Below, in pieces: positions 4,662-18,335 of a DNA stretch of 20,307 nt. The notes under the pieces are model-generated. The model worked only from the letters and a program-made list of their open reading frames with translations. It did not search any database and was not told the origin of the DNA. A program made the translations under genes and the position numbers. The DNA comes from a virus. The DNA lies in the IMG/VR virus record IMGVR_UViG_3300030118_000951, positions 1-20,307 of that record. The stretch is one strand, 5' to 3'. Positions within the stretch are counted from its first letter, which is position 1; each line of letters begins with the position of its first letter.

Positions 4662-6128
4662 CTATGAAAATTGTCTATTTGCAAATCTTTGCACTGCTAT
4701 CTCATACTCTTCTTGTGAATTAAAGTATTTTCTTTCTCCTGCTATTGGGTCGTACACAGAAGGATTGCCTACAAATGCTCCAGAAGACAACCACCTTTCT
4801 ATCATTTCAGCACCACTTTGAGAACCGTTTTTGTACGGGCTCACATCTATTCTAGATAAATATTGCCAGTTAGATTGTCCTTGTGGAAATTTTTTAGGGT
4901 CTAAGGATACACCAAATTCTTTCATATAGTTATTTACAAATTTAACTGTTTGATCTGTGTGTTGTTTAGCCTGTGATGGATTAAAACCGTTATAACTCCA
5001 AGTCATACTGTGAGCTAACTGTCCTGTCTCTTGATCGTACTTAATTTCAGAACCACCCATACCCGGTTTTGGTTTACCTTTTCCAAATCTAAAGAAAGAT
5101 TGTGCTACACTTGCTGCTGTTAAAGCCAAAGCTACACCTACGTTTCCTGAAAGTGTTGCATACGTAATCCCTGCACTTAATCCTGCCTGTATATAATCTT
5201 TTTCTTTAAACGCTTCATAAGCATTATAAGCTGAGATTGCTGCTCCTCCATATTTTGCAACTCCTGCCAAAGTACCTTTTCCTATATTAGCACTGCTTTG
5301 CACTGCAGAAGTTTGTCCTTGTGCTACAGCACTTGTTGGAGCATATGTAGTTGCCCCTGTTGCAGCATCAGTTGCTAATTTACCAGTATAATCTACAAAT
5401 TGTTTTCCAGTTACTGGGTCTATTTTAATTATAGCTTCTGGAACTCCTAAACCACCACCGGTCATAGTTTGATAGTAAGATTGTGGATTTCTTATAAAAG
5501 CAGAACCTTGAAAACCACCAGTTAAACCTAATTTATCAAGAGCATATTTACCACCTTTAAATATTCCCTTAGCTATTTCTGGCACAGCTACTTCATCAGT
5601 AGCAACATTGTATGAAAGTTCTTTTGCAAACCTTCTGTAATCTGCAGCAGTAAAATCAAAAGGATTATCAACAGATGATTTTTCAAGTTGTTCTATATCT
5701 TCTCTCAATGCCATTCTATTGCTGTAATCAGGAGAGACATTACCAGATAAATTCACAGAGGCTCTGGGCACCGTGTTTGTATCAACTGCCAAACTAGTAA
5801 CTTTAGGTGTGTCTAAATTAATGTCTGGCTCAGAAACAAATAATTCTCCTGCACCTCCTCTTCTAGCAATAGCATCTCTAACTTCTTGTTCTCTTTTTCT
5901 TCTTTCTTTTACAGAGGTAGGGTCTTGAAAAGTAGATATTATATTAGATAAATCTTGAGAAGCAAACTGATCAACATTACCTCTCACAGAAATAGGAGGA
6001 GCAGCCGGCACTGTTTCCTGAACTTTAGTTACCCTGTAAGCAGGGTCTAAATCTTTTTCAGTTAAAAATGCAGACTGTTCTCCTAAACTCGTGTCTAAAA
6101 AACTTTCATCTACCTCTGGATACGCCAT
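4662..6128 (-). CDS. Hypothetical virion protein with glycine-rich membrane-active segment, 488 aa
   Basis: The N-terminal half is polar and probably partly disordered, with repeated Val/Pro/Thr/Ser stretches and a basic helix at about 74-90 (KERRKREQEVRDAIARR). Residues 284-346 are Gly/Ala-rich and hydrophobic (GTLAGVAKYGGAAISAYNAY, then GLSAGITYATLSGNVGVALA), like glycine-zipper segments of ejection or internal virion proteins. A basic patch (FRFGKGKPKPG) follows, then a compact C-terminal domain. The ATG overlaps the stop of the preceding gene as TAATG. An internal or ejection protein delivered into the host envelope is a reasonable inference, not a family match. Confidence 0.7.
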   Translation of the reverse strand: MAYPEVDESFLDTSLGEQSAFLTEKDLDPAYRVTKVQETVPAAPPISVRGNVDQFASQDLSNIISTFQDPTSVKERRKREQEVRDAIARRGGAGELFVSEPDINLDTPKVTSLAVDTNTVPRASVNLSGNVSPDYSNRMALREDIEQLEKSSVDNPFDFTAADYRRFAKELSYNVATDEVAVPEIAKGIFKGGKYALDKLGLTGGFQGSAFIRNPQSYYQTMTGGGLGVPEAIIKIDPVTGKQFVDYTGKLATDAATGATTYAPTSAVAQGQTSAVQSSANIGKGTLAGVAKYGGAAISAYNAYEAFKEKDYIQAGLSAGITYATLSGNVGVALALTAASVAQSFFRFGKGKPKPGMGGSEIKYDQETGQLAHSMTWSYNGFNPSQAKQHTDQTVKFVNNYMKEFGVSLDPKKFPQGQSNWQYLSRIDVSPYKNGSQSGAEMIERWLSSGAFVGNPSVYDPIAGERKYFNSQEEYEIAVQRFANRQFS

Positions 6129-6382
6129 TATTTTTTCTTATCTTCCTTTTTCATCTGTTCGTAATTATTCTTCAAATTGAGGAGCATTGCCAGCAAACTG
6201 GCCTTCCCCTGCAGTCGGTACAGCTCCAGTTCCGATTGTGCCGTTACCAGCCCCTGTAAGGTCTGAAGGTTGAGCCCCTGAAGGAGCTTCTGTAGGGCCT
6301 CCCATACCGGGGGGTTGTTGACCACTGGGGAGAGCTGCTTCAGCACCTCCTGATTGTTGTTGTTCTGTTGGTTGTTGGGCAT
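6128..6382 (-). CDS. Connector-like small helical protein overprinting the portal tail, 84 aa
   Basis: The ATG at 6382 has AAAGGA seven bases upstream, and the frame overlaps the last 72 codons plus stop of the portal gene (218 bases) in a different frame. After a poly-Asn/Gln start, the protein becomes a compact helical domain (NPPVWEALQKLLQG, then ELELYRLQGKASLLAMLLNL and NYEQMKKEDKKK). The E-x-x-x-Y-R-x-Q-G-x-x-x-x-L pattern resembles short proteins encoded beside phage portals. The 488-aa gene begins in its stop codon (TAATG). Good ribosome site, coupling and helical regularity all favour a real gene. The function is unproven. Confidence 0.75.
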   Translation of the reverse strand: MPNNQQNNNNQEVLKQLSPVVNNPPVWEALQKLLQGLNLQTLQGLVTAQSELELYRLQGKASLLAMLLNLKNNYEQMKKEDKKK

Positions 6383-8273
6383 TTTGCATTCCTTTCAGCA
6401 TTTCTGCGTATATTTGAGCTTGGTTGATATCATTGACTAAACTGTCCGGATCAATATCTTGTGAGATAGCTAGTTCTTTTATAAGATTAGGAATCTTAAT
6501 GAACGGGGCTAACATTGGGTTTACCACTGTCTGTAGTAACATTGTCAGTCTTTGTGAACGTACTTCTTTTTGCATTACAGAAGACACACCTTTTGGTTTG
6601 ATCTCTAAGTCTCCTACAATGTCAGGCTGTTCATCGTTAAACTGCATGTTCCATTGAAATAGTGATTCTCCCAACGGTTTCAAAAGATGATCATCCATGT
6701 TTTTAATCACCGTTTTTATGGATAAGCCAGCCGAACCTAACAACATTGATAGGCCAGCTGCTGTTCTGCCTGTGCCACTAACGCCTGTCTGCCCATGCAT
6801 AATACTGGGAATCCCAGTCTCTTCATCAGCCAACTGTCTAGCTTTATCATACATCTGTATGTTCTCACCAGCGGTATTAGGGAACTTAATACCATTTACT
6901 GCTGTTCCTGTAACGCCAGACTGTCTTCTGAATATCTTACCCGGAAATATATCGTAATTCTGTCCGGGAACTAATGATGTTTCATCTATATCAAATACTA
7001 AATTACCTGCAAGTGTCAAGTTATCAATAGCCATTCTTACATGACCATTCATTAACATCTGTGCATCTTCCATGTTTTCTGGTACTCCAATGCCCCACAC
7101 TTGATAAGGGCTTATTTCGTATGGAAATACCTGATATGGTATTCTGTGAGGTGTAAATGGGTTGATTACAGCACGTAATACCTGATTACCACATATCCAT
7201 GCATTTATCTGTACTTTACCCAGTGGGTCTACATCGCCTACATCTTTTCCTATCTGTTGAAGAAAAGATACGTCTACAGCACCCCAATACTCTAATACTT
7301 CATATCTTTCGTTTGCAGCTCTTGATAGATACTCATCATCTCTAATTAAACTCTCGAAATACTTATCTACGTAGTTTCCACCACCTGTCAACACAGTTCT
7401 AATAGCATCAGGGTCGAACATCGGCATGTCCATAAGACCACGAAGCTGTTCTCTGTTCATCCTGTGTCTTTGTATTACATAATCTGCATCGTGTATATTC
7501 GTTGCTATAGGGTCTGGGTATAAATCCCAGCAAGATACAGATTCTATTCTTGGTACATCTCTGTAATACGGTGAGTATACTCTCTCACCATTTTCATTTT
7601 TTTGCCATTTATGCACTGTTTTTGTATGTGTAAAGGGGCCTTTTACGATACCTGTACCTAATAATACAGACTCAAATATAGAGTTTCGTAACGTAGTTAC
7701 AGCGTTGGACTCTGTCAATTGATCGTGTATGACCTTTTCCATACGCATTGCAGCTTCCTGTGCAGGAGTTATTTGTGGTTCTCCCATCAAAGCAGGCCCT
7801 TCTGCTATCGGTGCACCTTCATATTTGTCTTTCAGACCGCCTAGATAGTCTGATTCCATGGCTTGAGTAGCTCCGGGTGGCATTTCTCTGCCATCTCCTT
7901 CAAACCCATAGGGACTTTTCATTTCATCTATTGGTGTTTTCAAATGTGCAAACTCAGTTATACCTTCAGGTACAGGTGTAGATTCCACAGTGAGTGGAAA
8001 CTTCTTGTTTGCAAATAAGATATCTACTATCTGCCCGTAGGCAGCCAACACTTTAGTTTTGGTTATTTTTATGAATACTTTAGACTTTTCAGTGTCTGTA
8101 TACTGTGTACTAGAGTCGTATACACCTCTGAAGTTCTTATAAGCCTTCAGCCAGCGTTCTTCATGAACTAATCTACCGTTTTCTGCCTCTCGCTGATAAC
8201 CATTGATTAAACCTACAAGTCCCGGAGCTTGACCTTCATCAAGTTCTGTAGATACGTCTACAGGATCACTCAT
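6165..8273 (-). CDS. Portal protein
   Basis: This 702-aa protein would form the dodecameric DNA channel at one capsid vertex and dock terminase during packaging. Recognisable portal features include the N-terminal region KVFIKITKTKVLAAYGQIVD (65-84), SVSCWDLYPDP (245-255) preceding IQRHRMNREQLRGLMDM, the DEETGIPSIMHGQTGVSGTG segment (483-502) and the following helices (AAGLSMLLGSAGLSIKTVIK). The closest general style is large portals of P22-like and marine podoviruses. Residues 631-702 are a Gln/Gly/Pro/Ala-rich tail that is also read in another frame by the 84-aa gene. The start follows two stop codons of the upstream gene (TAATAGATG). Confidence 0.92.
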   Translation of the reverse strand: MSDPVDVSTELDEGQAPGLVGLINGYQREAENGRLVHEERWLKAYKNFRGVYDSSTQYTDTEKSKVFIKITKTKVLAAYGQIVDILFANKKFPLTVESTPVPEGITEFAHLKTPIDEMKSPYGFEGDGREMPPGATQAMESDYLGGLKDKYEGAPIAEGPALMGEPQITPAQEAAMRMEKVIHDQLTESNAVTTLRNSIFESVLLGTGIVKGPFTHTKTVHKWQKNENGERVYSPYYRDVPRIESVSCWDLYPDPIATNIHDADYVIQRHRMNREQLRGLMDMPMFDPDAIRTVLTGGGNYVDKYFESLIRDDEYLSRAANERYEVLEYWGAVDVSFLQQIGKDVGDVDPLGKVQINAWICGNQVLRAVINPFTPHRIPYQVFPYEISPYQVWGIGVPENMEDAQMLMNGHVRMAIDNLTLAGNLVFDIDETSLVPGQNYDIFPGKIFRRQSGVTGTAVNGIKFPNTAGENIQMYDKARQLADEETGIPSIMHGQTGVSGTGRTAAGLSMLLGSAGLSIKTVIKNMDDHLLKPLGESLFQWNMQFNDEQPDIVGDLEIKPKGVSSVMQKEVRSQRLTMLLQTVVNPMLAPFIKIPNLIKELAISQDIDPDSLVNDINQAQIYAEMLKGMQNAQQPTEQQQSGGAEAALPSGQQPPGMGGPTEAPSGAQPSDLTGAGNGTIGTGAVPTAGEGQFAGNAPQFEE

Positions 8274-8276
8274 CTA

Positions 8277-8519
8277 TTAGCCCTCTGTGCCTTGATAGCC
8301 TTGCTTTTGTGTCTGCCCCATGATGTATCCTGCATCGCCCATATGTCTGTTTCCAGCTGGCTTTGGGGTTGCCACATTGTAGGAATCTAGGTTAGTTGTA
8401 CCTAACAAGTTCTGATCTAAGCCTTCTCTGTATAGAGAACCTTCGTTAGCCTCGTTCATTTCGCCTTGTTTGGACATTTGACCCATGATATATCCTGCAT
8501 CGTAAGTTCCTTTTGGCAT
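8277..8519 (-). CDS. Small protein with duplicated DAGYIMGQ motif, 80 aa
   Basis: AAAGGAGG precedes the ATG by six bases, one of the best ribosome sites in the window, so strong expression is expected. The sequence repeats DAGYIMGQ-x-x-KQG at residues 7-19 and 62-74, separated by a polar, Asn/Gly-rich linker. At DNA level the core repeat is 21 bases with one mismatch (8317-8337 and 8482-8502). No family is recognised. It is the gene immediately before portal, so a head-assembly, connector-binding or internal peptide role is conceivable. The two identical motifs may be docking peptides for a symmetric partner. Confidence 0.75.
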   Translation of the reverse strand: MPKGTYDAGYIMGQMSKQGEMNEANEGSLYREGLDQNLLGTTNLDSYNVATPKPAGNRHMGDAGYIMGQTQKQGYQGTEG

Positions 8520-8547
8520 GTTTACCTCCTTTTTTGGTTGTTAAAAA

Positions 8548-10785
8548 TTAAAATAATATTTCATTTAGTTGTCTATCTAAATCACTCGTAGGGTTTTTAT
8601 CGCCTATAATTCTATTTTTTTCAGGTTTTTTACTATCTTCTTGAATAGCTTTTTCCATATCATATAAATCTAAAGCTGCTGCAGTTCTTTTTTCTTCTTC
8701 TTGTCTTTTTAAAAAGTCCTGATATTCGGGTGTTTGTTTAAATTCTTCTCGTGCTTTATCTTGAAGTGTCATGCCTAAATCTACTGCAGCCTCTTGAGTC
8801 GAACCGGGTAAGATAATATTTTTAGCAAATTTTGGTATTTTAGTAATACCTTTACCAAGTAATGCTATTCCTACCTTTCCTGCTTTTTTTAATGTTTCTG
8901 GGTCTGTCACGTACTCTAAAAAATCAGGTCTAGCAGCTTCTACCATAGCACCATAACTTGTTACTTTTGAAGTATCTATATCATCAGCTCTAAACTCTTG
9001 TCCTTCAGGTTTCATACTATCGTATCTATCAAAAAAATCTTTTGCAGTCATATCTTGAACGTCTGCTTCTGTCAAATTATTATCTGTCATTATTTCTTTT
9101 ATTAAAGGACTTTCTGTATTTAACTTTCCCTTTACTTTAGTTTTTATTTTTTTAGGGCCGGGTTTATCAGGACTATAAAACTTTTCAGCTTCTTCGTAAG
9201 ATTCTCCCGTTTTTTCCATACGAGCTCTTATGTCTTTATCTTTTTGATCTCTTAATTTTCTTAAATTTGCTAGACCTTCTTCGTTTGTAATTGCAGTTGA
9301 AATATCAGCACCTTGTGCAACATTTCTTTTAATAGTGTTGTTCTTTTTTTTGTCTTCTGGTGACTCTCCTTTAGCAATTGCTTTTTTATTTGTATCTTGA
9401 GAATATATAAAATCTAAATTTTTAAGTGTATCAGTATTAAGTCCCAAACGAGAAGCAAGTGTTTTAACAGAAAGTTCACCCTTTGCATTAGCAGCACCTA
9501 AAGTTTCAGCTAAAAATCTTTCAAAACTATAAAATACATTGTCAACAACCAGCTTACCTTTTTGTTTTTGTACTTTAGCGTAATGTTCTTCCATTACGGT
9601 TCCAATTCCTTTTTCTAGTGCATCTACTGTTTCGTGACCTAATAACTCATCTGCTGCTTTTCTATATTTTATCTTTAATGTTTCATCATCTAGCTGATCT
9701 GCCATTTCATTTATGACTGTAGAAGCAAAAACTCTTCTTAAATCTGTATATCCTGATAATGGTCTACCTAGCATTAAAGCAATTTCATTTTCAATTCCTG
9801 AAAAAACTACATTCTTTAAATTAGTTTCCATTTGTGATCTAGTTAATGTAGGAAATATATCTCCTGAATCCGGGTCTAACTCACTCATAAAATCTAATAC
9901 AGAAGACAATAAAGGCCCTGTTTTTACGGTTGGCGGTAAATATTTTCTTCCAGCTTCTTTTTTAATACCAGTTATATCTGTAGGACTGGTTATTTTTTTA
10001 CTTGCAGAATCGTAAAAAGGATCGTACTCGGTAGGGCCTCCCTCCATAGCTAACTCAGCAGTTTTTGCCATGTCTATAAGTGCTTCTAACCTCTGTCCAA
10101 ACAACGCTGTAATTGTGGCTATTTTTACTTCTGTATTCTTAATACCTGCCACGTTTGTCAATATGGCATTTAAAACTTTTTTTGCATCTACATCACCTCT
10201 AAAAATTCTAGTGCCAGCAGTGCTAGATTTTGGACGTATATATAATTTACCTTGTTTAAATTGTTTATCTATAACATTTTTAGTAGGATTCCATGCATTC
10301 ATATTTATTGGAGATTTTATATCTGAGGCCTTCTCTTCAAACACAGAAATAGGTAAATCTAAATAATTATTTTTGTATTTTGGATCATCTGCAAATTCTT
10401 TTTTAATTTCACTTATAATTTTATTAGTGCTTCTTACTAATCCTGAAGCACCCACAGTAGTCCCTTTACCTAAACCTTTTGCTTTTGATGCTCCTTGTGA
10501 ACTTTGAAAATTATCTAAAAAGGTAATAATCTCGTCAGCTATATCTGGAAATCTTGTTTCATAAAATTCTTTTTTAAACCTTCCAGTTTTGTCATCGACT
10601 ACTTTAAACAATGCACCTTCAGAGTATAAACGAGCTATAATTCCATCTTTAATCGTAGCTGTGCCATTAGCAAATTTATCACTAAGTTCTTGCACAGAAG
10701 GAACCTTACCATTTACTGTAAGATTTTTTAATATATATTCAAAATCTTTTTTAAGAGGTTCAAATTTTTTTCTTTTCAATACCAT
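8548..10785 (-). CDS. 745-aa protein with tyrosine-recombinase-like core
   Basis: This long, lysine-rich protein sits between terminase large subunit and portal. Residues 200-405 read like a tyrosine recombinase catalytic domain: ITALFGQRLEALIDM (Arg I = R232), GRKYLPPTVKTG (possible catalytic-lysine hairpin, K281), GYTDLRRVFAST (R350, with Thr in place of the usual first His of HxxR), ELLGHETV (H384) and EEHYAKV (candidate nucleophile Y402). R232-R350 spacing (118) and H384-Y402 spacing (18) are longer than in XerD-type enzymes. N-terminal 200 residues could be arm/core-binding; residues 410-745 are charged and unrecognised. It starts four bases after the TerL stop. It could be a real recombinase, a degenerate DNA-binding fold, or a virion protein; I do not know which. 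Confidence 0.65.
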   Translation of the reverse strand: MVLKRKKFEPLKKDFEYILKNLTVNGKVPSVQELSDKFANGTATIKDGIIARLYSEGALFKVVDDKTGRFKKEFYETRFPDIADEIITFLDNFQSSQGASKAKGLGKGTTVGASGLVRSTNKIISEIKKEFADDPKYKNNYLDLPISVFEEKASDIKSPINMNAWNPTKNVIDKQFKQGKLYIRPKSSTAGTRIFRGDVDAKKVLNAILTNVAGIKNTEVKIATITALFGQRLEALIDMAKTAELAMEGGPTEYDPFYDSASKKITSPTDITGIKKEAGRKYLPPTVKTGPLLSSVLDFMSELDPDSGDIFPTLTRSQMETNLKNVVFSGIENEIALMLGRPLSGYTDLRRVFASTVINEMADQLDDETLKIKYRKAADELLGHETVDALEKGIGTVMEEHYAKVQKQKGKLVVDNVFYSFERFLAETLGAANAKGELSVKTLASRLGLNTDTLKNLDFIYSQDTNKKAIAKGESPEDKKKNNTIKRNVAQGADISTAITNEEGLANLRKLRDQKDKDIRARMEKTGESYEEAEKFYSPDKPGPKKIKTKVKGKLNTESPLIKEIMTDNNLTEADVQDMTAKDFFDRYDSMKPEGQEFRADDIDTSKVTSYGAMVEAARPDFLEYVTDPETLKKAGKVGIALLGKGITKIPKFAKNIILPGSTQEAAVDLGMTLQDKAREEFKQTPEYQDFLKRQEEEKRTAAALDLYDMEKAIQEDSKKPEKNRIIGDKNPTSDLDRQLNEILF

Positions 10786-10788
10786 CTA

Positions 10789-12474
10789 TTAATACCCAAA
10801 TATCTGATCTTGTGGTTCATATTGTTGTGTCTGCTTCATCATCCTATGCGGAGAATGCACATTCATCAGAGTTCTACTCATTACCATATACCTCAACGCA
10901 TCATAAGCATGATCTTCAGCTTTCGTATCCACATCTTCAGGGTTAGTTTTAGATATAGGTAGTGTAGGTAGAGTCCTGATTGTATTGTTGCACGTAGAAA
11001 AAAAACGAAGCCTAGGAGTACCATGGTCATCACAGGCTAATCTCCTGTGGACTTCTATCTTCCCTGCAATTCTGTTCCTGTCCGCTGGTGTCCATCGTGC
11101 TCCTCTTCGTATCATAGTCTCGGCAATAGAAGGCCCCAAACCTGTTCTGTTCCAACAGGAAGAATCCAGCGTTGTCTGCTGCATTGGTGGGTCTTCTCTT
11201 TCCATTTGTACTATCAAATCTCCTAACCTTTCTCCTGTGAACCCTTTTACATAGAGTTCTCTATAAATCCATATGTTATTGTCCCAATCTATAGCTCCCC
11301 AGAGTATACATGAGGGTGAAGAATACCCATAATCGCCTGATCGTATCCTAGTCCAGCCAGATGGTACATCAAACGGCTCTACAACGTGTGTTTCACGGCT
11401 AAATTCAGTAAAAGCAGAGCCATCTGCTACGTCCCAGTCACCTTCTAACAACCTTTTTCTCTCTATTTCAGGCAAAGACATCAACATTGCTTCATATTGA
11501 CCGTCTTCAAACAAATATGGGTTGTCTGTCAACCTTGCAGGCACGAATTTGCGTAAAAATAACGGCTGATCGGCCTTTGGGTGGTTCACTGGGTACTTTA
11601 AAACCTTACCAGTGTCAAAATCCTTAGCCCAGAAGGGGTCATTTGGTGGATTTGGGTCGATATACATCTTTTTTACCCACCAACCACCGGTTCCTCCGGG
11701 GTTTGCTGTACATCTCATGTACATTCCTAAGTCTTTATCCGTTGTTCTCAGTCGAGAACGTAAGTAATTCCACACATACGGTGTGGGATATTGTGTAATT
11801 TCGTCTATTCCTATCCAATTGAACGCTTGTCCTTGGTATCTAGTCACGTCTCGGTCATCATCTACGTATGAAAACCATATTCTAGCACCTGATGGGAACT
11901 GCCAGATGGACTTTGCCTCCTTAAATACAGCTCCGGGGAACGCTTTTGGATAGAGTTGCTTGCTTTTGTCTATCAATTCGGTCAATTCTGCCAGTGTTCT
12001 TCTTAACAGCAAGCCCCTATGGTTGGGATTTGATGCATCTCGCAGCACATCTGCTAATAATGCATAGGATTTTCCCCCTCCTGCTGCTCCTCCGTATAAG
12101 ACATCTCTTTCAGGTGACTCAAGGAACATAGTCTGTGGGCCTTCGTTAGCCCTGAATACTACGTCATGGTGCTGTAAATGCTCACGTACAGCTTGAGGCA
12201 CCTTCTTCAAGTCCTCATCTGTGATCACACTGACGGACTTCTGTCTTCCCTTCAGAGCATTGTCCACCTTGACAGCAGCTTCTTGAGCTTCTTTGGCTGA
12301 ACGCCTCGCTTTCTTAGCCTGTTTCGTCAGTCTTTCAGCTCTTCGCTTCTTTTCAGATAGCTGTCTCTGAGTAGCCAATCTGGCCTTCATCTTCATAGAC
12401 CAGTTATATCTCGTCTTTGGTTCTCCCTCTTTCTTGGGAGGTCTACCTCTTTTTGGTTTCTGTTCTTCTGTCAT
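10789..12474 (-). CDS. Terminase large subunit (packaging ATPase-nuclease)
   Basis: The ATPase domain shows a Walker A at 128-136 (GGAAGGGKS, K135), a Walker B at 220-225 (WIGIDE) and the coupling motif TANPGGTGG at 256-264. The nuclease domain shows acidic residues in SGDYGYSS (D381), TTLDSSC (D437) and EDHAYDALRY (D521/D525). The protein of 561 aa translocates DNA into the procapsid through the portal and cuts the concatemer. The first 100 residues are a highly basic extension that begins KPKRGRPPKKEG, an AT-hook-like RGRP core. The ATG overlaps the stop of the preceding gene as ATGA (12471-12474). Confidence 0.95.
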   Translation of the reverse strand: MTEEQKPKRGRPPKKEGEPKTRYNWSMKMKARLATQRQLSEKKRRAERLTKQAKKARRSAKEAQEAAVKVDNALKGRQKSVSVITDEDLKKVPQAVREHLQHHDVVFRANEGPQTMFLESPERDVLYGGAAGGGKSYALLADVLRDASNPNHRGLLLRRTLAELTELIDKSKQLYPKAFPGAVFKEAKSIWQFPSGARIWFSYVDDDRDVTRYQGQAFNWIGIDEITQYPTPYVWNYLRSRLRTTDKDLGMYMRCTANPGGTGGWWVKKMYIDPNPPNDPFWAKDFDTGKVLKYPVNHPKADQPLFLRKFVPARLTDNPYLFEDGQYEAMLMSLPEIERKRLLEGDWDVADGSAFTEFSRETHVVEPFDVPSGWTRIRSGDYGYSSPSCILWGAIDWDNNIWIYRELYVKGFTGERLGDLIVQMEREDPPMQQTTLDSSCWNRTGLGPSIAETMIRRGARWTPADRNRIAGKIEVHRRLACDDHGTPRLRFFSTCNNTIRTLPTLPISKTNPEDVDTKAEDHAYDALRYMVMSRTLMNVHSPHRMMKQTQQYEPQDQIFGY

Positions 12475-12698
12475 CTATCTAAGTGTACACCTATTTTCAT
12501 TCGCTTTGTCAGACCGGGGTTTGATATCTTCCTACCCGATGCTGTACTTAGCCATCTCGCAGCTTTTGCAGGCCCACAGCTGTTTGCGAATGTAAACGCC
12601 TTTTCTAACAATTCCAACTCTTTCTCTATAGGAATATATTCTTTTCCATCCTCTGATAGTTCATATCCAAATGGGATGGTTGATGTTGTTCTTCTCAA
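12471..12698 (-). CDS. Mini protein resembling the serine-recombinase 'Recombinase' DNA-binding domain, 75 aa
   Basis: Translation appears to start at TTG (12698), overlapping the upstream stop as TTGA, with GGTGAG five bases before. The sequence PFGYELSEDGKEYIPIEKEL followed by LEKAFTFANSCGPAKAARWL and ISNPGLTKRMK resembles the PF07508-type region of large serine recombinases (GY-x-x-x-x-G-x-x-x-P, then helices and a small helix-turn-helix). No catalytic resolvase domain is present. It is coupled on both sides, to the 248-aa membrane protein and TerL, so it belongs to the packaging operon. A DNA-binding accessory of packaging is possible. The family call is by pattern only. Confidence 0.65.
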   Translation of the reverse strand: MRRTTSTIPFGYELSEDGKEYIPIEKELELLEKAFTFANSCGPAKAARWLSTASGRKISNPGLTKRMKIGVHLDR

Positions 12699-14112: not shown

Positions 14113-14523
14113 TTAATCCTCCACGTTTACAACTGGCATCTCCTTCTTAGCTGGCATCAATACCACACCGTGAAGTAACTTACCTTCTACATCAATCTTC
14201 TCTTGTTTGCCCAGACCGACCCTGTCGAGAAGTGTCTGTGCAGCCTTCAGTCGCAACTCTGCCCTAGGGTGTTCACCTACATCATTCATACCTTCGACTA
14301 CACGATTGATTGCTGTAACCGAGTGTGCTGCAAGTTCTACTTTTGCCTGTTCTATAATTTCATCCTTGAGAGACTGTAATACGTGCTGTCTAGAAGATGG
14401 CTTGTAACCAGCCAGCTCTAGTGCCTTTGTAATATTACCACCACACTTGAATAGTTCTGTTAAGAACGATTGCTGTTTTTCGGTTAGCTCTCTGGATTTT
14501 TCTTTTAGTAATCCTTGATTCAT
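14113..14523 (-). CDS. Terminase small subunit
   Basis: This 136-aa protein has an N-terminal helix-turn-helix region typical of TerS (ELTEKQQSFLTELFKCGGN, then ITKALELAGYKPSS, residues 12-44), followed by helices (QHVLQSLKDEIIEQAKVELA) and an oligomerisation-type helical segment with HPRAELRLKAAQTLLDRVG (85-103). TerS binds the packaging start site and regulates TerL. It is the first gene of the late block. The ATG at 14523 has no recognisable ribosome site. Upstream is a structured leader and a strong promoter, so initiation may be controlled by that leader. Confidence 0.85.
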   Translation of the reverse strand: MNQGLLKEKSRELTEKQQSFLTELFKCGGNITKALELAGYKPSSRQHVLQSLKDEIIEQAKVELAAHSVTAINRVVEGMNDVGEHPRAELRLKAAQTLLDRVGLGKQEKIDVEGKLLHGVVLMPAKKEMPVVNVED

Positions 14524-14630: not shown

Positions 14631-14658
14631 ATTATACTGTATATACAGACTTTGTCAA
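14631..14658 (-). promoter_or_regulatory. Leftward sigma70-type late promoter with palindrome in the spacer
   Basis: On the minus strand TTGACA (14653-14658) and TATAAT (14631-14636) are both perfect consensus hexamers separated by 16 bp. The spacer contains the 12-bp palindrome CTGTATATACAG (14637-14648), which directly abuts the -10 box. The start point is expected near 14624, giving a 100-base leader for TerS and the late block. The palindrome is well placed for a repressor to block polymerase. It resembles LexA half-sites (CTGT/ACAG), but with a 4-base rather than 8-base gap. Confidence 0.75.
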
Positions 14659-14666
14659 GTTTTTTC

Positions 14667-14695
14667 TTGACAGGTTGCTCATAGGGGTGTATAAT
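14667..14695 (+). promoter_or_regulatory. Rightward perfect-consensus sigma70 promoter
   Basis: TTGACA (14667-14672) and TATAAT (14690-14695) are separated by exactly 17 bp, an ideal sigma70 promoter. It points away from the late promoter and into a 420-base region with no convincing gene, ending at the bidirectional-looking terminator at 15121-15162. The -35 boxes of the two divergent promoters form the inverted repeat TGTCAAG-N6-CTTGACA (14653-14672). Confidence 0.75.
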
Positions 14696-14701
14696 AAAAG
14701 G

Positions 14702-15165
14702 TAAGCCTTTGGGGGAGCATATATATAGGTATACTTATAGACAGCAACGGGGTCTTACTTAGGTACAGCCACGGACAGCAACTGGTTTAAACCCCCATTT
14801 TTCCAAAATTATTATCGGCATTGCATACACATGTATAGGTAGCCCCAGTGTCCCACGCATAGGGTAATCGCAGAAAATTAATATTTTTTCTTATTAAAAT
14901 AACAAAAGCTAATTATTAATTACATTTACAATTATATCTAATTTGTATTTTAAAACGGTAAACTAATCGCCTAGCGTGTGTATTATCCAAACTATGCTGA
15001 CAATTTTCTGGTTTAATCTAATTAAATTACAATGTTAAACAGCTGGTGGGCGTGTCATTCAACCCAAAGCAAATCCAATATTATCAGTAGTTTATGAATT
15101 AAGTAGGTATTTAAGTAAGGCATAAAAAAACCCATCGTTGCAACCTACATACAGCAATGGGCTTT
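14702..15165 (+). ncRNA. Candidate non-coding transcript
   Basis: This is the stretch expected to be transcribed from the perfect promoter at 14667-14695. Only frames of about 20 codons or fewer, without ribosome sites, are visible on this strand. The 5' part holds two ACAGCAAC elements (14741-14748, 14775-14782) and a GGGGT...ACCCC pairing followed by ATTTTT near 14803, which could end a short, roughly 100-nt form. Otherwise transcription could continue to the hairpin at 15131-15161, followed by CTTTTATT. This is inference from promoter, lack of genes and terminator only. Confidence 0.4.
15121..15165 (-). terminator. Terminator of the leftward early block, possibly bidirectional
   Basis: On the minus strand CCCAT and TGC pair with GCA and ATGGG (with a 3-base bulge), followed immediately by seven T and an A/T tail. 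It lies 13 bases past the stop of the last early gene. On the plus strand the same stem is followed by CTTTTATT, so it may also stop the candidate rightward transcript. Stem: 15131-15135 with 15157-15161, and 15139-15141 with 15154-15156. Confidence 0.65.
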
Positions 15166-15174
15166 TATTGTTTA

Positions 15175-15372
15175 TTATTTCTTTTTTATCGTGCAACCCT
15201 CCTTTATTCTTAATGGTCTTTTCAAATATTCGTTATATCTTAAGGCTGTATCTTTATCTGCAAACAGCAACAGATCCGTTTGTGTGTCTATAAATTGGTT
15301 ACTTGTTAAGCAATAAGGTTTAACTGTATTACTTGCCTTATCCAATTCATATAACATTACTTTTTTAGCCAA
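15175..15372 (-). CDS. Hypothetical protein, 65 aa, TTG start
   Basis: AAAGGAGG ends five bases before the TTG at 15372, giving a protein that begins AKKVMLYELDKASNTVKPYC after the initiator. The open frame continues upstream, but there it overlaps a 28-aa membrane peptide gene and has no ribosome site, so the TTG start is preferred. The body (LTSNQFIDTQTDLLLFADKD, then ALRYNEYLKRPLRIKEG) looks like a small alpha/beta fold. No family is recognised. It is the last gene before the terminator of the leftward early block. Confidence 0.7.
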   Translation of the reverse strand: MAKKVMLYELDKASNTVKPYCLTSNQFIDTQTDLLLFADKDTALRYNEYLKRPLRIKEGCTIKKK

Positions 15373-15383
15373 TTTATCCTCCT

Positions 15384-15470
15384 TTATATAATTAATAATA
15401 TTATAAGTATAACAGCAATTATAATTATACTTACACACAATTTATATACTAAACTTATAAAACTTTCCAT
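15384..15470 (-). CDS. 28-aa single-pass membrane peptide
   Basis: The ATG at 15470 overlaps the stop codon of the preceding gene (TAATG). The frame ends in TAA just before the AAAGGAGG of the next gene, so it exactly fills the intergenic space. The peptide begins MESFISLVYKLCVS and ends in 14 hydrophobic residues, nearly all Ile, Leu, Val and Ala, a single transmembrane helix. AT-rich sequence readily gives Ile/Leu codons, so chance cannot be excluded, but the precise fit to its neighbours argues for a real coupled gene. Function unknown. Confidence 0.5.
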   Translation of the reverse strand: MESFISLVYKLCVSIIIIAVILIILLII

Positions 15471-15763
15471 TATTCACCTATTAACTTTTGATGGTTATTA
15501 ATAGGTAAATTATCAGAGTAGATTTTAGTTTTATTATCAAATTGTGATCTTTTAATAAGTTTACCGTCTACGTAGAATCTAAACTCTGCTATATGTTTAG
15601 TAAGCATTCGCCTTGTTGTCCTATGCTTAATAAAGTCAAAAGACCATACGGCACTAGACCCAACTTTAATATGAACTATTCCCTCATCTCTTACACCGTA
15701 TGACTTACTACCATTATATATACAAGCAGTAACATCATTCCAAATTGGATAACTTCTACTCAT
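15470..15763 (-). CDS. Hypothetical protein starting MSRSYPIWNDV, 97 aa
   Basis: The beginning MSRSYPIWNDVTACIYNGSK, followed by KSYGVRDEG and a VGSS motif, resembles a small protein family of unknown function that recurs in marine phages and cyanobacteria, as far as I recall. It continues with basic residues (FIKHRTTRRMLTKHIAEF) and a beta hairpin (RFYVDGKLIKRSQF). GGAAGG precedes the ATG, and its start overlaps the end of the 48-aa gene by four bases. The function is unknown. Confidence 0.8.
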   Translation of the reverse strand: MSRSYPIWNDVTACIYNGSKSYGVRDEGIVHIKVGSSAVWSFDFIKHRTTRRMLTKHIAEFRFYVDGKLIKRSQFDNKTKIYSDNLPINNHQKLIGE

Positions 15764-17073: not shown

Positions 17074-17271
17074 TTATTCTCCTATTGATTTTGTATTATC
17101 ATTTATCATATCTTCATTAGCAATCTTTTCTAACTCTGATTGAATTAAATCTTGCAAATCAAAAGAATATTTATGCTCGTCCAATGGTATCTTACAAATG
17201 CCATTCTTTTCAAATTCATTAAGAACAGCATCTGTAATTAGCATAGCAACGTCTAAATTATTCCTTGCCAT
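17074..17271 (-). CDS. Hypothetical acidic helical protein, 65 aa
   Basis: The ATG at 17271 overlaps the stop of the DUF932-family gene as TAATG, so it is probably translated by coupling. The product is short, acidic and helical (LDVAMLITDAVLNEFEKNG, then LQDLIQSELEKIANED). No motif is recognised. Its tight linkage to the DUF932 gene may indicate a joint function, which is inference only. Confidence 0.65.
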   Translation of the reverse strand: MARNNLDVAMLITDAVLNEFEKNGICKIPLDEHKYSFDLQDLIQSELEKIANEDMINDNTKSIGE

Positions 17272-18335
17272 TATGCCACCATCTGTAGTTCATTCCAATG
17301 ATCAGAATCCAAGCAAGAACGCACCTTGTTTTCCCTTTCAATTTGTACTGATCCTACATTACTACCATTCCTAGAAGTATACGCTGTGACAGTTTCTCCC
17401 TTAGAATTGGTTCTCTCCCAACTGCTGTCTGTGTGTGTACTCCAATGTGTTAATGCATTGTATACTGCGTACAGCGTCCCACCAAGTGACTCTTTTTCCT
17501 TGCCATATTGGTACATAAGAAAGTCATTCAGTTTAACATTGATCAACTGTTTTAGTTCTACACCCTCTTCCTTCAGTGCGTCCTTGATAATAGTTGCTGA
17601 CTCTGATTTACGTTTAGCAATGGTATTTGCAAACAGCATTGCCACTTGCTCGTCAGTTACTTTGGTATCCCTCCAATTGCATAACTTGTCATAGTCCCTA
17701 TTGTACAAGTCTACTGAGTTAGCAATCTTAGATACAGCACTAGCATAATTGATATTAGAAGTATGCTTTTGTTTACTGTGGTAAAACTTCTCGCCCCCAA
17801 ATACCAAAGTGTTTAAACATAACTTTCTATACATTCCAGAGAATACTTGAAATGCAAATGATCCGTCTAAACTGTTAAAAGTATCTGATCGCATAGTTAC
17901 AACGTCCTCATCTGATACTCTTTTAGTATGATTAAGAAAATGGATAGTACGTCTTGCCTTTGCACCTTTATCCCAAAGTTGATCTATAATCTCAATTTGA
18001 TCTGGATCATAAGCACTACTATTCTTAATAGCATCTGCGTGTCTTTTATAAACGTCTAAGTGTGGTACAATCTTATAAGTTCTGCCGTGTACACCTAAAC
18101 ATTCATTGGTATCTGCTCTGACTACAGCGTGTTTACCGTCAACCCTAGTCATTATATTAGAGTGACCTTCTACATAATCAGTAGCACCATTTTTTCTAAA
18201 GTTATAATGCTCAGTAGTTTCAAAAAACAACGGTCTCTTTTCAACTTTGAAATCAAAAAAAGATAGATCGTCTATATTGTTATGCGTGTTAGTGGTGGGA
18301 TTGATAACTCCCATTACATCATTTGTACTTGTCAT
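17271..18335 (-). CDS. DUF932 / phage-plasmid-like protein (TIGR03299-type), 354 aa
   Basis: The protein shows the organisation of the DUF932 family found in phages and plasmids: an N-terminal region with RADTNECLGVHGRTYKIVPH (about 93-112), a middle with GAKARRTIHFLN and DGSFAFQVFSGMYRKLCLNT, and a C-terminal region with GGTLYAVYNALTHWSTHTDS and a final segment around SDHWNELQM. The biochemical role of the family is not established. It is often encoded near DNA-metabolism or anti-defence genes. AGGAAGG lies seven bases before the ATG, and a sigma70-like promoter lies upstream at 18377-18406. It is the largest gene of the leftward early block, so strong expression soon after infection is likely. 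Confidence 0.85.
   Translation of the reverse strand: MTSTNDVMGVINPTTNTHNNIDDLSFFDFKVEKRPLFFETTEHYNFRKNGATDYVEGHSNIMTRVDGKHAVVRADTNECLGVHGRTYKIVPHLDVYKRHADAIKNSSAYDPDQIEIIDQLWDKGAKARRTIHFLNHTKRVSDEDVVTMRSDTFNSLDGSFAFQVFSGMYRKLCLNTLVFGGEKFYHSKQKHTSNINYASAVSKIANSVDLYNRDYDKLCNWRDTKVTDEQVAMLFANTIAKRKSESATIIKDALKEEGVELKQLINVKLNDFLMYQYGKEKESLGGTLYAVYNALTHWSTHTDSSWERTNSKGETVTAYTSRNGSNVGSVQIERENKVRSCLDSDHWNELQMVA

Follow-up and report, generated by a model that had tools for sequence, protein, structure and literature searches.

Cultured phages of the HMO-2011 type carry their integrase gene upstream of the replication genes, and one of them, CRP-3, is temperate and integrates at tRNA-Met (PMC9038755, PMC6918029). 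The HMO-2011-like subgroups IV-X have been described as devoid of lysogeny genes (PMC9038755). The DNA analysed here, a linear virus record of 20,307 bp that we refer to as the window, represents part of the genome of an HMO-2011-like marine podovirus, since its large terminase (TerL) and its portal protein are ~50% identical to those of the Pelagibacter phages HTVC115P and HTVC033P, of HMO-2011 and of the CRP roseophages. Read from right to left, the late genes encode TerS, TerL, a protein termed X, an 80-aa protein, portal, a 488-aa protein, a membrane protein and a lysozyme, followed by two more proteins, the second of which has the position of a scaffold protein, and the major head protein (Table 1). 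In phages the TerL-portal interval is normally among the best-conserved regions of the genome, whereas here it holds a hypervariable recombinase family.

Table 1. Features of gene X and of its neighbourhood, in coordinates of the window.
Feature	Position	Strand	Basis or remark
Slot gene X, 745-aa tyrosine-recombinase-family protein in the TerL-portal interval	8548..10785	-	ORF with ATG start; family-wide conservation
X residues 1-195, N-terminal, mostly helical, core-binding-like by position	10201..10785	-	AlphaFold core model, mean pLDDT 84 over 1-440
X residues 196-430, catalytic domain	9496..10200	-	core model, fold search, profile alignment, conservation
R232 codon (Arg I)	10090..10092	-	167/167 homologues
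K281 codon (beta-hairpin Lys)	9943..9945	-	150/167 homologues
T347 codon, site of the usual HxxR His	9745..9747	-	T 61, S 32, A 29, K 13, Y 8 of 167
R350 codon (Arg II)	9736..9738	-	167/167 homologues
H384 codon (His III; second His/Trp position before Tyr)	9634..9636	-	H 93, R 69 of 167
Y402 codon (nucleophile)	9580..9582	-	164/167 homologues
X residues 431-745, C-terminal extension, poorly modelled	8551..9495	-	shuffled among relatives independently of the core
Large terminase TerL	10789..12474	-	end lies 3 nt before the X start
80-aa protein, X-portal interval	8277..8519	-	tracks the phage backbone; not exchanged along with X
Portal protein	6165..8273	-	
TerS	14113-14523	-	
Perfect sigma-70 consensus promoter, 5' of TerS	14631..14658	-	TTGACA-16-TATAAT, 12/12 match; pair recurs in many relatives

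Owing to its location in the packaging operon and its start only 3 nt past TerL, X is probably co-expressed with TerL and portal, and the promoter in front of TerS is likely the head of a TerS-TerL-X-portal transcription unit. A second perfect sigma-70 promoter (12/12) stands back to back with it on the plus strand (14667-14695) and reads into a non-coding stretch that ends near a hairpin at ~15130-15165; such divergent pairs of perfect promoters recur in ~26 loci including HTVC115P. Just 3' of the plus-strand promoter (~14700-14880), many relatives share a conserved non-coding element of the type GCATAC...ACCCCCCGTGACCC.TGCGT.CCC, which had no match in Rfam and might represent a small RNA leader, a packaging site or an origin. 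As a recombinase site, the palindrome TGTCAAG-N6-CTTGACA (~14653-14672) was rejected, because it is formed by two -35 boxes standing back to back, the spacing of which differs from phage to phage. Its TTTTTT spacer (window 14653-14672; locus L188 5926-5945) reads AAAAAA in G007, i.e. it is inverted in place, which template switching at a hairpin would explain. Two other genes of the window deserve mention: a 75-aa protein before TerL (12471-12698) resembles the DNA-binding recombinase domain of large serine recombinases (PFGY...), with no Pfam match and PHROG_95 integrase only at E 0.28, and a DUF932 protein (17271-18335, E 2e-17) is kept in related genomes.

A preliminary description of this DNA had read a tyrosine recombinase signature into X, and R232, K281, T347, R350, H384 and Y402 do occupy the positions and local contexts assigned to them in the 745-aa minus-strand ORF (8548-10785). 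In an alignment of 29 members with a mean identity of 21%, the sole invariant columns are M1, R232, R350, H384 and Y402, and K281 is conserved to at least 90%. Across 167 distinct, non-identical homologues, conservation in the core is highest at R350, R232 and Y402, with both arginines present in every homologue and the tyrosine in 164, and position 384 is His in 93 and Arg in 69. This residue pattern is far beyond chance. The first His of the HxxR motif is indeed missing, as had been pointed out: it is T347 here and never a fixed His across the family. The same histidine is known to vary within the tyrosine recombinase superfamily. For close allele pairs with usable values, dN/dS of the core ranges from 0.04 to 0.3, and the C terminus mostly has higher values; a pair with 24% identity was left out as too diverged. 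Judged by these ratios, the core is under purifying selection and X is a working gene and no relic.

Used as a single query, X found nothing in Pfam, PHROGs, the PDB or INPHARED. Among 70 family members, 15 match PF00589 (Phage_integrase) at E<=0.01 (best 2e-6), the window protein not being one of them, and 19 match a PHROG integrase (best 1e-8); two members match the NCBIfam XerA model. In a separate PF00589 search of 14 records, most of them X-bearing, matches occurred at the slot gene only and were all below the curated cut-off. A profile alignment of the X family with six canonical HMO-2011-type integrases superposed R232, DLRR and GH (prob 57%, E 1e-4; TerL control 0.3%). The AlphaFold model of residues 1-440 (pTM 0.82, mean pLDDT 84) retrieved XerA (E 4e-3, prob 0.99), lambda Int and TopoIB as top PDB folds in Foldseek, with XerH and Cre further down, and recombinases or TopoIB make up nearly all of the top matches. 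These E-values are modest, with none passing 1e-3, so that the predicted fold supports the recombinase claim and does not carry it; the fold search with the full-length model was weak because of its disordered C terminus. Neither outcome that would have contradicted the preliminary description, a confident model lacking the recombinase fold or homologues in which the catalytic residues are not conserved, was observed. Family-wide conservation, the profile matches of relatives and the fold establish the tyrosine recombinase core as real, and X very probably belongs to this superfamily. Moreover, the Arg-Lys-Arg-His/Arg-Tyr set kept throughout the family, the remote profile matches of the relatives and the fold allow the prediction that X is catalytically competent.

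Searches with TerL and portal gave ~150 related contigs, and two further scans using only X subfamily alignments as queries gave 144 loci. The placement in the packaging block holds throughout: TerL is directly upstream of X in all 131 loci with upstream sequence, and portal is adjacent downstream in all 109 loci with downstream sequence. TerL adjacency was first called in 127 of the 131; in the four exceptions (L311, L319, L321, L322) the contig ends within X, so that the start of X was placed wrongly, and TerL lies 417-469 bp upstream. One branch has a TerL-portal interval that consists of a single gene for 520-850 aa plus a ~75-aa gene; the large slot proteins are connected to one another by BLASTP or profile alignment and are all recombinases. 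The carriers are uncultured HMO-2011-like marine phages. Five family members (X and four others) had no match in the 50,697 phage records of INPHARED and no cultured member was found; in cultured relatives the slot holds small unrelated genes or nothing.

Other branches use the interval differently. The ~320-aa slot proteins of L040, L045 and L048 were considered as family members and rejected, since they are unrelated to X and do not chain with it. Proteins of 200-355 aa, likewise unrelated to X, occupy the slots of L040, L041, L045, L048, L049 and L063, and, among those with inspected termini, a GKVY..(S/R)KPK tail at the C terminus is shared. A related phage contig in a Blastopirellula MAG bin (L198) is devoid of the X gene; its TerL (6747-9338) appears to hold an intein-like insert, and a homing-endonuclease-like ORF (15006-15710) precedes its head protein.

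Within the fixed slot, X is the most sharply variable gene that we measured in the packaging block. Between the window and G015, TerL is 99% and portal 97% identical and X only 24% over most of its length; for G007 the values are 99% for TerL and 44% for X, and in L002, with a TerL 98.8% identical, X has no detectable BLASTP similarity. In our sample, which is redundant and chosen by similarity to the window, so that its figures are descriptive, the X core was without a match or below 50% in 230 of 364 pairs whose TerL is 95-100% identical, and its similarity followed that of portal weakly (rho 0.15, compared with 0.82 for TerL, 0.73 for the 80-aa gene and 0.66 for the post-portal gene). In 150 pairs with TerL at least 93% identical, the DNA ceases to be homologous +5 nt from the X start codon and becomes so again +1 nt past the stop codon (medians). 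X is swapped as a whole ORF between near-identical phages. Boundaries as sharp as these would also be expected of ordinary flanking recombination, given near-identical flanks and wholly different alleles. Besides X, the head block has a second highly variable gene, that of the 488-aa post-portal protein (4662-6128), with 42% and 28% identity where portal has 97% and 79%; a family search with it gave no match above noise.

The C-terminal extension, which comprises ~150-350 aa in the X family, is shuffled separately from the core. Proteins with cores of no or very little similarity share C-terminal 150-aa regions that are 50-90% identical (L116/L135 90%, L004/L093 69%, L014/L017 60%), and the core scores less than 60 bits in 20 of the 80 pairs whose C termini are similar. 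The window itself has the stretch 8873-9018 in common with G015, though not the rest of X. Compared with all other proteins of the loci, the C-terminal regions had no homology beyond the slot. A Gly/Ala-rich hydrophobic segment is often found at 70-90% of the length of X-family proteins and is weak in X of the window; in most members its hydrophobicity is no greater than in shuffles of the same region, and we place no weight on it.

With some hesitation, and a little short of an even chance, we read X as a tyrosine recombinase with a late or virion-linked action on phage DNA rather than as a classical integrase. Such an enzyme would cut and rejoin phage DNA late in infection or right after ejection, using a site specific to each allele, and might serve to circularise a terminally redundant genome or to resolve concatemers, by analogy with Cre, which acts near pac in phage P1. 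The recombining core, whose wholesale exchange between phages is observed, would provide this activity and the C-terminal extension may tether it to packaging or virion partners. The DNA that swapped alleles have in common reaches to the start codon on one side and to the stop codon on the other, so a target specific to one allele would be expected within X itself or in some other variable region rather than in the conserved flanks; lox- or dif-like inverted repeats in the slot were in no excess over TerL and portal controls. This negative search for a DNA target counts against our reading, and so does the hypervariability, which is unexpected for a housekeeping enzyme that circularises the genome. 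A bolder version, in which the virion carries a polymorphic recombinase with a wholesale-swapped core, the C-terminal extension is its packaging or ejection module and each particle delivers an allele-specific DNA-rearranging enzyme into the host, we consider unlikely. Most phage tyrosine recombinases are integrases, and a lysogenic integrase that moved to the TerL-portal slot and is often swapped to change a non-tRNA host attachment site is a somewhat unlikely alternative with several points in its favour: the PHROG and Pfam matches of the relatives are to integrases, int modules are commonly swapped between phages, the slot is essentially empty in the six int-bearing cultured phages, no other integrase was found in near-complete X genomes, and X and a canonical int never occurred together among the records sampled. 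The HMO-2011-type relatives also include CRP-3 as a proven temperate phage (PMC6918029). In contrast, a 3.5 Mb scan for tRNA-type attP sites (T-arm and acceptor with a strict 3'-tRNA+CCA end) found none in the X loci or in five near-complete X genomes. As a control, the same scan recovered sites in CRP-3, CRP-212, CRP-235 and CRP-738, i.e. in four of the six int phages, and tRNAs in CHOED, with no tRNA-type site in HMO-2011 or CRP-1. This speaks against a tRNA-targeting integrase, though not against integrases as a whole. The swapped DNA is the ORF alone, hence no flanking attP travels along. No repressor-like or partition gene is present in the Pfam matches of G002 or in the 25 of 60 G001 families shown, and two limited-pattern genome scans for prophage copies or phage-host junctions gave only a phage contig without X. 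The late-operon position and the C-terminal extension of 150-350 aa likewise speak against an integrase.

The sharp hypervariability and the shuffled modules also resemble polymorphic effectors, and a second hypervariable gene lies past portal (4662-6128). X could then be a virion- or late-delivered DNA-cutting effector against host or rival-phage DNA with the C-terminal extension as delivery module, an idea to which single members add weak matches to pilot proteins (E 0.007 and 0.013) that are maybe coiled-coil artefacts. We regard it as quite improbable, because polymorphic effectors usually carry unrelated toxic domains, whereas all large slot proteins are recombinases, and because no PADLOC, toxin or secretion family was supported, the defence-family scan giving scattered single-member matches. 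That X is a DNA-binding regulator built on the integrase fold, in the manner of SPbeta MrpR/YopR or phi3T SroF, is very improbable: integrase-fold repressors do occur among the weak fold matches, but the catalytic Arg-Arg-Tyr is kept in 164-167 of 167 homologues. The repurposed DNA-binding fold that the preliminary description had offered as another option fails for the same reason, since the nucleophile and both arginines are retained in a core under purifying selection. Protelomerases resemble the X family in protein length (500-850 aa) and in their R-K-R-H-Y set. That X forms the hairpin ends of a linear plasmid prophage is nevertheless extremely improbable, as the slot has no large palindrome, none of 70 members matches the Telomere_res Pfam profile, the Pfam scan of G002 found no ParA/ParB family, and the matching ends of G001 and G002 fit genomes that are circular or permuted.

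Beyond the preliminary description, our data show that X is hypervariable as a whole gene, that its C-terminal extension is shuffled on its own and that no tRNA-type attachment site is present in the X loci and genomes scanned. Profile libraries fail to recognise X of the window, and the family belongs to a widespread uncultured branch of HMO-2011-like marine phages. An X that works on phage DNA or is carried in the virion would give tyrosine recombinases a new role; should it instead be an integrase, the subgroups described as lacking lysogeny genes may need re-examination.

Compared with known systems, X shares its superfamily with the HMO-2011-type integrases (HMO-2011 gp09, CRP-1, CRP-3, CRP-212, CRP-235, CRP-738), with Arg I, DLRR and GH aligned. 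However, these enzymes comprise ~290-370 aa rather than 520-850 aa, lie upstream of the replication module (PMC9038755, PMC6918029) and not in the TerL-portal interval, and four of their six genomes carry a tRNA attP, compared with none of the X genomes; in addition, X has the C-terminal extension and is devoid of the HxxR His. XerA and XerH are the best fold matches of the core, and XerA is also the NCBIfam model matched by two members, but X differs from them as a fast-swapped late-operon phage gene with a long C-terminal extension and without a dif-like site found. Cre of P1, which is among the fold matches too, comprises ~340 aa and its gene is not located in the TerL-portal interval; X is larger, sits in this interval and has no lox-like site found, and yet, as a phage-coded tyrosine recombinase, it may play a role on phage DNA like that of Cre.
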